Assembly (NCBI GenBank): GCA_937872405.1
Contig: CALMSP010000066.1
Location: 1 to 35,277, forward strand
Origin: an uncultured Saprospiraceae bacterium
GTDB lineage: Bacteria > Bacteroidota > Bacteroidia > Chitinophagales > Saprospiraceae
Direction: 5' to 3'
Length of the DNA: 35,277 nt
This document shows, one piece after another, positions 22,823-35,277 of the stretch; the first letter of the stretch is position 1; each line of letters begins with the position of its first letter. A model generated the notes under the pieces. The model searched no databases. It was not told the DNA's origin and saw only the letters and a list, made by a program, of their open reading frames with translations. Made by a program: the position numbers and the translations under genes.

Positions 22823-23452
22823 TTATAATAGCTGAACACAAAGGTCTAAGTCAATAGCAATTTCGTTGGCTACCTTGATTAGTCCCATCATCGGGCGGGG
22901 CGGGCGGATACCGTAATCCGTAAGTAGTAATTTTTTATTACCCTTGAATCGGTACTCGCGCTCCGTTGCTTGCATAGCCTGCACAAGGAGCGTTTCCTTA
23001 CGGCTCACCCCAGCAATGGTGATTTGCGCGGTCGCATTCATAGTTGCCCAATCGCCATTGGGGGTCAGGCGCGTATCGCAGGACTGCCGCACTTCCAGCA
23101 ATTCAATAAAAATATGCGGGTACTCATTGGCTTTGAGCGCCTCGTACATGTCATTATTCATAGCCTTATTGCCGCAGTGCAATTTTTTGGACTGTACCTG
23201 CAGAATAGCTTTTGAAAATCGAATCCGATCACCGATCTTTATAATGCTGGACTCTGCCTTGGGAAAAGATTCTGTGCAGTGGCAAGTAAAATCCGTTACA
23301 TTACTAGTGCCCTCAATACGAAGCGAGCTACCCTGCATGATTTGAAACGCTACCGTGCGGCTCGTGCTGGCGGGCAACAGCAGCAAAGCTGGTAGCAACA
23401 AGACGAACGCCGAGAGAAAAGGTACTTGAGTGGGAACGGATAGCTTGTTCAT
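22823..23452 (-). CDS. YceI family protein (second copy of the YceI-porin-YceI unit)
   Basis: This is a 209-residue exported protein with an N-terminal signal/hydrophobic segment (about 8-36) and a YceI lipocalin-like beta-barrel. Family marks are SSLRIEGTSNVTDFTC, NNDMYEALKANEYPHI, ITIAGVSRK and LLLTDYGIRPP. Characterised YceI proteins bind polyisoprenoid lipids in the periplasm. It is the last gene of a three-gene minus-strand unit, with the porin 74 bases upstream and a hairpin between them that may lower its expression. It is clearly divergent from the 25-kb YceI copy and carries several cysteines (CHC), which that copy lacks. Confidence 0.9.
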   Translation of the reverse strand: MNKLSVPTQVPFLSAFVLLLPALLLLPASTSRTVAFQIMQGSSLRIEGTSNVTDFTCHCTESFPKAESSIIKIGDRIRFSKAILQVQSKKLHCGNKAMNNDMYEALKANEYPHIFIELLEVRQSCDTRLTPNGDWATMNATAQITIAGVSRKETLLVQAMQATEREYRFKGNKKLLLTDYGIRPPRPMMGLIKVANEIAIDLDLCVQLL

Positions 23453-24953: not shown

Positions 24954-25556
24954 TTATTTACCTGTTGTTCGGTTATTACTAACCGTAGGTGTCATTTTTA
25001 CCGAAAAACCGATGGTGACTTCATTGCCCGTTTTCATGGTGCCCATCAAGGCAGTAGGCGGATCAATGCCGTATTCGGTCATTAGAATGCTGCGCGAACC
25101 CTCAAATTGTAAGCTACCATCTTGCAGCACTTTGCCTTTTACATCCATGCTGATCGTTCTGGTCACGCCGGCTACAGTCAGGCTACCGCTCGTTTTGATT
25201 TTGTAGTCATTACCGCTTTTTTCTAAGGCGCTTACACTGCCAAGTTTGTAAGTAATATTAGCATGTTGATCACTTTTTAAAGCACTGTAGGTTCTTTTGT
25301 CCATCGCTGAGCCTTTCGAACTTTTGATGCCATTCACCGGAATGGTCACACTTAGGCTATTGATGGCTTTGAGCAAATTGCCATCCAAGGTCAGGTCGGC
25401 GCTTGCTTGTACTTTGCTTACATTGGATTCCCAATCGTGCAGGTTGGAAGTACCCGCAATTGTCATTTTACTGGAAGTAATTTCGTATGCTGTTTGTGCA
25501 CTGGCCCACTGCAACATTCCGAAGGCAACTATTAGGAAAAAAATTGAACGTGCCAT
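24954..25556 (-). CDS. YceI family protein (first copy)
   Basis: This is a 200-residue periplasmic protein. The signal peptide is at residues 1-20 (MARSIFFLIVAFGMLQWASA). The YceI domain shows MTIAGTSNLHDWES, MDKRTYSALKSDQHANI, SLTVAGVTR and SILMTEYGIDPPTALMG. YceI barrels hold long isoprenoid or fatty chains. It is the first gene of the YceI-porin-YceI unit. Its upstream region holds an exact TAnnTTTG box and a Crp/Fnr-like palindrome, so regulated expression is likely. Confidence 0.93.
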   Translation of the reverse strand: MARSIFFLIVAFGMLQWASAQTAYEITSSKMTIAGTSNLHDWESNVSKVQASADLTLDGNLLKAINSLSVTIPVNGIKSSKGSAMDKRTYSALKSDQHANITYKLGSVSALEKSGNDYKIKTSGSLTVAGVTRTISMDVKGKVLQDGSLQFEGSRSILMTEYGIDPPTALMGTMKTGNEVTIGFSVKMTPTVSNNRTTGK

Positions 25557-25805: not shown

Positions 25806-27056
25806 TCATTCAACGGTTAATGCCTGTAAATCCATCAACAATATCACAGGGTTGCTATTTTCATTTACACGCTCGAAAGTATTTTTAATAGCTTGCGGCA
25901 GGTTGTTGTAATTATATTTTTCCAATAATGCTTTTTGCACGTCTGGTCTGCTTACCACCATGAGTGCTTTACCCTCGTAGCCATCATACACCGGCCATAG
26001 CCGTATGTCTTTCAATAAAAAAAGCCTACCGGTTTTATGCTGTTTATCATAGCGGAAAAGATGATGCTGCCTTTGATATCTGAACCCCAAAAACAAGTCA
26101 TCAGGTGTATCATGTATTAGCTCAGGAGTGGCAATAATATCAGGATTATTCATCCAATTTAGCACAGCCAAATTAAAATCCTGCGCTTTTTTATTCTTTT
26201 CTTCTAATAGCTGGGCTATGCTTGCTTTTCGTTGGGGTTCATTACTAAATTTTAGTAAATACAAAGGATGTATTTCATTGCCATTACATTTATAAATGGT
26301 ATCATTGGCTATATCACAGCTTAGAAAACCATGATCAGAGGTAGGAAAAAAATAGCCACTAATATGAAATCCCCTATCAGCAAAAACTTCCTGAATAGGC
26401 GCACGGGCATCTATTACTTGCCCTGTTGTCGTATCCAATAAAAGGATGTTATCATTAAAACCTAATTCATCAAAATGCAATGCGTTGCCTCTGTGCAACA
26501 GATATTTACTTCCCATCGGGGCAAATTTTGCTGCCGGAATATTTAATGATGCACTTTTTAAAAACATCCCAGATGTATCATAAAAAAAACTTTTAGCCCT
26601 TATATTATCCATGAATTCCAATAAGGTATCGCCATGTAAATAAAGGTCTTGTAAGTAAGAAAAATTGCCTGGGCCCGGCTGGTTGGCGTCTATTTTTTTT
26701 AAAAACTCACCCTTATTATTAAAAATTAAAATACTCTTCGTATTACTAATATCCAGAATATTATAAACTATCAATAAATGCTTGGTTGCTATAATTTTTT
26801 CTACCCTATCCATAGCGCTTTCAGGCACGAACTGTAAAGGCACCGCGTCAACAGCCGACCAGAAGTGTTGCTCGGATATGGTGGTGAACTTTTGTAAATC
26901 TATGAAAATGGTTTCTATGTCGTCGTGTGCGTGCTGCTCGTTGCTATTGGCTACGCGGCAGCCCAATACCCCAAAAGTGAACAGAAACGCGAGGCAACAA
27001 ACCAGATATTGATATGGATGCATCATGACTATTTTAATTTTATTATGGATTTTCAT
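25806..27056 (-). CDS. 6-bladed beta-propeller lipoprotein
   Basis: This is a 416-residue exported protein. The N-terminus has a basic region, a hydrophobic stretch and a lipobox-like VLGC with cysteine at residue 33, so it is probably a lipoprotein. The start may be M1 (27056) or M11/M12. The body shows repeated beta-strand motifs of the kind found in NHL/TolB-like six-bladed propellers common in Bacteroidota (IFNNKGEFLKKID, DTSGMFLKSASLN, FRYQRQHHLFRYDKQHKTGRL). Its function is unknown. In Bacteroides, related propeller proteins often neighbour small cysteine-containing peptides, and here a broken peptide gene lies just upstream. Codon use is more AT-rich than that of neighbouring genes. 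Confidence 0.8.
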   Translation of the reverse strand: MKIHNKIKIVMMHPYQYLVCCLAFLFTFGVLGCRVANSNEQHAHDDIETIFIDLQKFTTISEQHFWSAVDAVPLQFVPESAMDRVEKIIATKHLLIVYNILDISNTKSILIFNNKGEFLKKIDANQPGPGNFSYLQDLYLHGDTLLEFMDNIRAKSFFYDTSGMFLKSASLNIPAAKFAPMGSKYLLHRGNALHFDELGFNDNILLLDTTTGQVIDARAPIQEVFADRGFHISGYFFPTSDHGFLSCDIANDTIYKCNGNEIHPLYLLKFSNEPQRKASIAQLLEEKNKKAQDFNLAVLNWMNNPDIIATPELIHDTPDDLFLGFRYQRQHHLFRYDKQHKTGRLFLLKDIRLWPVYDGYEGKALMVVSRPDVQKALLEKYNYNNLPQAIKNTFERVNENSNPVILLMDLQALTVE

Positions 27057-27195: not shown

Positions 27196-27424
27196 TTACT
27201 GATGCCTACCATCACAAAAGCCTTGATCGCCTGAAGCACAGCCACCCGAACCACACTCACATCTTAGTAACTACCGTTCCAGACCCATCAGTACACCATT
27301 TATAAACTGTAGCAGATGCTGGAAGTGGCCAGCATCCATGATACCCTAAAACGGTGTTAGAATTTGTGCAGAAAAATAAAACGAAAAGAATACTTGGAGA
27401 TAGTGATTTTAAACATTTTTTCAT
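27196..27424 (-). pseudogene. Frameshifted gene for a small cysteine-rich secreted peptide
   Basis: From the ATG at 27424 the frame runs 55 codons to a TGA at 27259-27257. The first 28 residues form a signal-peptide-like segment (MKKCLKSLSPSILFVLFFC), then YHGCWPLP and VYKWCTDGSGTVVTKM. In the +1 frame right at that stop the reading resumes as CECGSGGCASGDQGFCDG and ends at TAA (27198-27196). Joined, the product would be about 75 residues with six cysteines after the signal segment, evenly placed. A one-base insertion or a sequencing error explains this most simply. Similar peptides accompany 6-bladed propeller proteins in Bacteroidota (the NVEALA-type association), but I cannot assign the family. 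Confidence 0.6.
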
Positions 27425-27455: not shown

Positions 27456-27493
27456 CAAATTTAGTAGTAGTAGTAGTAGTAGTAATAGTCAAG
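27456..27493 (-). promoter_or_regulatory. Promoter of the cysteine-rich peptide with microsatellite spacer
   Basis: On the minus strand, TAAATTTG (27463-27456) is an exact TAnnTTTG -7 box, with a TTG at 27492-27490. The 26-base spacer is made almost entirely of CTA triplets. The recalled optimum for this promoter class is about 17-23 bases, so loss of one to three triplets (23, 20, 17) would bring it into range. The leader to the ATG is about 25 bases and A/T-rich, as is usual for Bacteroidota. Confidence 0.6.
27462..27488. repeat. (TAG)n trinucleotide microsatellite
   Basis: Seven perfect TAG units (27462-27482) are followed by TAA and TAG. It is the only simple trinucleotide tract of this length seen in the window and it lies between promoter elements rather than in a gene. 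Confidence 0.95.
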
Positions 27494-27521
27494 TAGGAAG
27501 AAAAAAATTAATATAGACTTA

Positions 27522-27682
27522 GAGCATGTTTAAATTTCATACTTTGGTCTGCAAATGTTCATCTATGGAACCTCACTTTGCCTTTTTCTCGCTCCGTAGC
27601 GCTGCTATGCAGCTCAAAAAACGCTTCGTGAGAACCCAAATCTGATCATTTTCGACTTCAAAAACGAATTTTAAACATACTC
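27522..27682 (+). mobile_element. Complete 161-bp MITE-like element with TTA target duplication
   Basis: The ends are GAGCATGTTTAAATTTC and, inverted, GAGTATGTTTAAAATTC, nearly identical over 17-20 bases. TTA flanks both sides (27519-27521 and 27683-27685). It has no coding frame. The inner part holds a GCTGC-TAT-GCAGC hairpin. The GAG(C/T)ATG ends with a three-base TNA duplication resemble the IS1031 group of the IS5 family, so a non-autonomous relative mobilised by such a transposase is a reasonable inference. Partial copies with identical ends sit at both window edges. Confidence 0.85.
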
Positions 27683-27776
27683 TTAACATTATCTGTTTAA
27701 AGTGGCATTCGGTAGTCAAGAATCAGGAGTAGTATGATGGGCTATCCTATACATTATGGACGGTTCGTGATTTCAA

Positions 27777-35227: not shown

Positions 35228-35277
35228 GAGTATGTTTAAAATTCGTTTTTGAAGTCGAAAATGATCAGATTTGGGTT
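35228..35277 (-). repeat. Partial copy of the MITE-like element (right-end part)
   Basis: These 50 bases are the exact reverse complement of 27633-27682, the right 50 bases of the complete element, preceded by TTA at 35225-35227. The copy continues past the window edge. It has the same orientation as the partial copy at 1-50. Confidence 0.85.

Follow-up and report, generated by a model that had tools for sequence, protein, structure and literature searches.

This locus raises the question of why a short gene for a secreted, cysteine-rich peptide beside a beta-propeller lipoprotein gene is split over two reading frames, and whether the two halves belong to one gene at all. The peptide gene and the propeller gene downstream of it lie on the minus strand of the window, the whole 35,277-nt stretch of a Saprospiraceae contig that was analysed (Table 1). 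The initial annotation had described a signal-peptide frame of 55 codons running into a cysteine-dense tail in the next frame, joined at TGA 27257-27259 into a product of about 75 residues whose part beyond the signal segment holds six cysteines, and a co-directional propeller gene about 140 bases downstream. The open reading frame coordinates agree with each of these points and add the strand, which had been left out. The first frame extends from ATG at 27424-27422 to TGA at 27259-27257 and encodes 55 residues (MKKCLKSLSPSILFVLFFCTNSNTVLGYHGCWPLPASATVYKWCTDGSGTVVTKM), while the tail frame opens at 27261 on the same strand and stops at TAA 27198-27196. Reading through gives 75 residues with six cysteines past the signal segment, and the first ATG of the propeller gene lies 139 bases past the stop of the tail. 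The window copy, being split over two frames, has no uninterrupted reading frame. Signal peptides here and below were called by a simple hydrophobicity rule.

Table 1. Features of the peptide-propeller locus in the window; bit scores of the peptide parts are on a profile of intact relatives.
Feature	Position	Strand	Remarks
DUF5128 (PF17170) 6-bladed beta-propeller, probable lipoprotein	25806..27056	-	Pfam E 4.7e-19; 69.2 bits against a gathering cut-off of 22.9
Cysteine-dense tail of peptide gene, neighbouring (+1) frame	27196..27261	-	CECGSGGCASGDQGFCDGRHQ; 8.7 bits alone; lifts the joined product to 32.8
5' part of peptide gene (signal peptide and first half of mature peptide)	27257..27424	-	11.9 bits alone
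Likely promoter (predicted role)	27456..27493	-	CTTGAC 27493-27488, (ACT)7 27483-27463 and TAAATTTG 27463-27456
Miniature inverted-repeat element, 168 bp	27519..27686		GAGCATGTTTAAA ends, TTA on both sides

The peptide family and its members

As a single query, the first 53 residues of the peptide returned only noise from the genome of origin and 101 other genomes, and matches of this query at two loci (L003 and L004) were dismissed on inspection. The family surfaced only once the regions upstream of propeller genes were examined. An intact 63-residue peptide is encoded 83 bases upstream of a second propeller on contig C89 of the same genome, and the same arrangement of intact peptide and propeller is found in two further Saprospiraceae genomes (G106 and G024). 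A search with a profile of these peptides brought in members from G175, G412 and G403, in each case immediately followed by a propeller; G412 holds two intact members and G029 another, all directly upstream of propellers. Among 398 genomes of the order, an eight-row profile that includes the window sequence itself found matches in Saprospiraceae only, and the newly found copies on G412:C11 and G403:C19 again precede a propeller. At the level of the class, two weak matches fall outside the family Saprospiraceae: one, in a genome of another family (G995), is a 76-residue peptide directly upstream of a propeller, and beside the other no propeller was seen.

The members share the core C-x(n)-V-x-[RK]-C-x(n)-C-x(n)-Q-x-x-C, from which the final cysteine is absent in one member. 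This core, preceded by a signal segment, defines what is called here the VIRC-type subfamily of Saprospiraceae peptides (C..V.[RK]C..C..Q..C), a grouping introduced in the present analysis. The joined window product carries the core, with C34, C44, C51 and Q56 aligned and, in most, C59 as well. All VIRC-type members found in Saprospiraceae, including that of the window, immediately precede a DUF5128 propeller gene encoded on the same strand.

Scored on a profile built from six intact relatives, the joined product obtains 32.8 bits, whereas its N-terminal part and its tail by themselves obtain 11.9 and 8.7, respectively. The real mature sequence reaches 27.1 bits on this six-member profile, compared with a best score of 13.8 among 19,953 scored shuffles of the whole mature sequence and of 23.2 among 20,000 shuffles of the tail only. 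The profile scores and the shuffles together argue that the tail in the second frame is homologous to the C-terminus of the family. That the two frames are unrelated chance ORFs and the cysteine tail a coincidence of composition would suit their shortness and their low separate scores, but the chance of this is negligible, since no shuffle reaches the joined score, intact relatives occupy the same position beside propellers, and both the shuffle test and the pairing counts given below contradict it.

The window peptide is therefore very probably, as judged from these alignments, a broken member of a real and unnamed family. The proposal of a small, broken, secreted cysteine peptide within a peptide-propeller module is upheld by the intact relatives beside propellers. 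Similarly, the expectation that the joined product should have intact homologues, and that these should adjoin propeller lipoproteins, holds both in the same genome (the 63-residue peptide on C89) and in other Saprospiraceae (G106, G024, G175, G412, G403 and G029). None of the eight peptides scanned had an above-cut-off match in Pfam or NCBIfam, and searches of the open-access literature for NVEALA, DUF5128, PF17170 and PF14055 returned nothing relevant. As such, the description of the system as undescribed stands for the peptide family, for which neither a Pfam or NCBIfam model nor an open-access paper was found, but not for the pairing, which is not unique to this organism.

Pairing of peptide and propeller genes

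The window propeller is a clear member of the DUF5128 (PF17170) family, a label in which a peptide partnership is absent. Its likely lipoprotein start lies near 27026-27023 (MMHPYQYLVCCLAFLFTFGVLGC), about 30 bases inside the first ATG, and an FGVLGC lipobox can be read behind this internal methionine. Searching the genome contigs with the propeller found a single close relative, an orthologue with 43-45% identity in a genome of the same genus (G001). A sequence search of the PDB returned nothing better than weak, 70-residue matches to TRIM2/TRIM3, and an AlphaFold2 model built from two sequences was unusable (pLDDT 42). On one strand of G001 (L033:5613-9005, G001:C19), a lipoprotein with a cysteine-rich C-terminus is followed by a 301-residue membrane protein with a CGAC motif and then by the propeller orthologous to that of the window; the 301-residue protein has a thioredoxin-like domain at Pfam E 0.0025, which is below the cut-off. 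In the window itself, two similar secreted proteins (22823-23452 and 24954-25556, with SSLRIEGTSN / TIAGTSNLHDW), YceI-like by eye, flank a gene for a porin-like protein of 462 residues just downstream of the propeller.

Propellers were drawn from 248 genomes of Saprospiraceae and from loci found through the peptide, and were compared with 231 other ORFs of at least 200 residues from the same DNA. A peptide was counted when it had 40-140 residues, was secreted, had at least three mature cysteines and was encoded no more than 700 nt upstream on the same strand. Such a peptide precedes 32 of the 73 propellers but only 4 of the 231 other ORFs, a count that is conservative because the window and the G403 pair both scored negative; dropping duplicate loci leaves 28 peptide-bearing propellers. 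In terms of gene order, the pairing of peptide and propeller is systematic. Over half of the propellers lack a recognisable peptide, and these proteins may therefore serve some other purpose.

The peptides appear to change rapidly. For example, an array in G235 (L086, G235:C27) consists of five tandem peptide-propeller units in which the five peptides are almost the same over their first 40 residues and have leaders that end in a VEALAQ-like motif, while the mature cysteine-rich parts do not align. The propellers of the array are 21-25% identical to the first. Read from the genes, these loci are two-gene units with a fast-changing peptide.

A further observation concerns AcrB-type (RND) permeases, often of a divergent type: 7 of 33 propeller loci have one no more than 12 kb away, against 1.4 expected (p ~3e-4 in a post hoc test on genomes chosen partly for the pattern). 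These loci are L037 (G000:C89), L036, L086, L124, L125, L127 and L128, and none is at the window.

The initial annotation had linked the locus to NVEALA-type peptides, which it placed beside propellers in Bacteroides. This neighbourhood was seen directly in one contig of a Bacteroidales MAG (L152, JAIROC010000148.1), where two NVEALA-like peptides precede DUF5128 propellers by 82 and 69 nt and score 16.0 and 10.9 bits on PF14055, under the curated threshold of 27. The arrangement in the window can thus be regarded as a variant of a known, functionally unstudied pairing. Both cases have a short, cysteine-containing secreted peptide directly upstream of a PF17170 propeller, with the units in tandem in the Bacteroidales contig. 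However, the NVEALA label itself does not fit the window peptide: the joined product has no match to PF14055 and lacks the NVEALA leader motif, and the NVEALA-like peptides of L152 do not score on the profile of the window family. PF14055 had no match in the genome of origin or in 98 other genomes of the phylum, while the control, Bacteroides ihuae, was matched. The propeller neighbour common to both is gene context and not membership. Peptides in two Saprospiraceae genomes (G235 and G290) have VEALA-like leaders by eye, and one of these matches the core of the window family with a score that none of 2000 shuffles reaches. The alignments therefore suggest a link between two different peptide families that share the same pairing.

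The frame break, the likely promoter and the mobile element

The split into two frames most likely reflects either a recent lesion, the favoured cause, or an error in the assembly, and not programmed frameshifting. An assembly or sequencing error in the draft MAG, with the gene intact in the living organism, is the lesser of these possibilities but a sizeable one. The source genome (G000) is a draft of 318 contigs that is 87% complete, the order of peptide and propeller is otherwise normal, and the tail still fits the family well, which also means that any real lesion must be young. Against such an error, some two dozen further genes of the window appear to be full-length, so its sequence is not generally error-prone, and loss of the peptide beside a kept propeller has occurred independently in two other genomes. 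G403:C19 lacks the 5' part of the peptide gene where this borders on an apparent insertion sequence, and G001:C55 has lost the peptide but still has, ahead of the propeller, the sequence that immediately followed the peptide's stop codon, which brings the cases of peptide loss with a kept propeller to three when the window is included. These independent losses and the mobile element at the promoter make real decay plausible. At L123 (G001:C55, ~7209-7100, minus strand) a repeat-bearing promoter element runs into a short cysteine-rich remnant that reads CYDCCPWDCSD in one frame and looks like a deleted peptide gene.

Production of the full peptide by programmed +1 frameshifting, which the initial annotation had offered as the other option, is very improbable. 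Conservation of the downstream frame at the protein level despite the stop would be in keeping with it, but every intact homologue is a single uninterrupted frame, and inspection of the junction (ACTAAGATGTGAGTG) by eye found neither a release-factor-2-like (CUUUGA-like) slip site nor an upstream AGGGGG-like stimulator or internal Shine-Dalgarno-like sequence.

The miniature inverted-repeat element, inserted immediately 5' of the likely promoter, occurs in the same genome in at least 40 near-identical copies and has 24 matches in the same-genus genome. Its terminal inverted repeat also occurs at positions 38-50 and 35228-35240, that is, at both ends of the window, so the element probably breaks the assembly.

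Upstream of the peptide gene the window reads CTTGACTATT(ACT)7AAATTTG. Within this region, TAAATTTG agrees exactly with the -7 box of Bacteroidota, TAnnTTTG (PMC2483708). By pattern searches, on which repeat counts in the genome of origin rest, CTTGAC followed by a trinucleotide repeat occurs there at this single site. Further sites of this kind in G001 stand upstream of secreted cysteine peptides or cysteine-rich lipoproteins, and one of them precedes the gene that heads the cluster containing the orthologue of the window propeller. The G001 sites are on C24 (L122, ~7288 and ~8997), C19 and C55. The distance from TTG, taken as the -33 element, to the -7-like box is 11, 14, 17, 20, 20 and 26 in G001 and 26 in the window; the usual spacing is about 20. 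The repeat may belong either to the spacer of the promoter or to the leader of the transcript.

In G001, two units in tandem match in 5' leader and peptide but carry (TAT)9 and (TAT)4, respectively, and for the window one allele, (ACT)7, is available. The differing repeat number between near-identical units of the same genus suggests phase-variable expression, and a repeat-controlled regulon of secreted cysteine-rich genes in the genus of the window is possible on the distribution of these sites. Among 30 units whose upstream regions were checked for repeats with units of at least two bases, repeats were present in this genus only and are thus not a general feature of the module. A comparable case is the control of lipoprotein promoters by a trinucleotide repeat in the vlhA genes of Mycoplasma gallisepticum (PMC6258824). 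Both have a trinucleotide repeat of variable length, with conserved flanks, upstream of genes for surface or secreted proteins. The phylum, the repeat and the type of gene differ, and the present case is known from sequence alone.

Possible roles of the pair

Taken as a whole, the locus is best explained, with a probability of roughly 60%, as a two-gene unit of a Sec-secreted, disulfide-rich peptide and its cognate DUF5128 propeller, in which the peptide is broken here. Both proteins would be exported, and the peptide would fold through its four conserved cysteines. The propeller would be anchored by its lipid and bind the peptide encoded beside it, either on the cell surface or within the periplasm; from the gene pairing, the odds that the propeller is the direct binding partner are about even. 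The peptide would then most likely be released as a competition or recognition factor that the propeller protects against or receives, and in the genus of the window the promoter repeat may tune or switch expression.

Such a division of labour is proposed because the peptides change fast and the propeller is kept after peptide loss, the latter being expected of a protective partner. A role in competition and immunity is nevertheless tentative on this genomic evidence, and we would call it rather unlikely. Typical membrane-active antimicrobial peptides differ from the mature peptides here, most of which are near-neutral or acidic, and this counts against a classical antimicrobial role. The closest comparison, in manner of working only, is with class II-type bacteriocin-immunity pairs, in which a small, variable, secreted peptide likewise has an adjacent membrane-anchored partner that is kept after loss of the peptide. 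In contrast to these, neither a double-glycine leader nor a dedicated exporter or peptidase was seen, the peptides are not cationic, and the present pairs are known from their genes.

The main functional rival has the propeller sensing the peptide as a signalling ligand or processed pheromone, with no part for the peptide in competition. The pairing data (32/73 against 4/231) also fit this, as do the near-neutral peptides, and the thioredoxin-like 301-residue membrane protein between the cysteine-rich lipoprotein and the propeller in G001 would suit a redox or processing step. On the other hand, only peptide and propeller recur at most units in the gene maps, in which neighbours were read from their N-termini and are partly annotated, and loss of a peptide with its partner kept is more typical of toxin-immunity than of ligand-receptor pairs. 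Signalling of this kind is judged unlikely.

Returning to the two-gene unit of peptide and cognate propeller, its wider meaning would lie in a system diversified across Saprospiraceae. Each small disulfide peptide would have its own surface propeller as partner, pairs would duplicate into arrays that keep a fixed leader while the mature parts change, promoter repeats would switch individual pairs and peptides would at times be lost with the propellers retained, as in interbacterial competition or self-recognition, and the NVEALA pairs of Bacteroidales would belong to the same system. This larger picture is speculative, and the chances are well against it. Most small cysteine-rich proteins in Bacteroidota lack annotation, and no function is assigned to the DUF5128 propellers; a peptide family distinct from NVEALA that sits beside these propellers across genera offers a candidate partner and a testable role for both. 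If the pairs do prove to be recognition or competition factors under repeat control, they would represent a new kind of interaction at the cell surface, in a phylum of importance to waste-water sludge and the gut.
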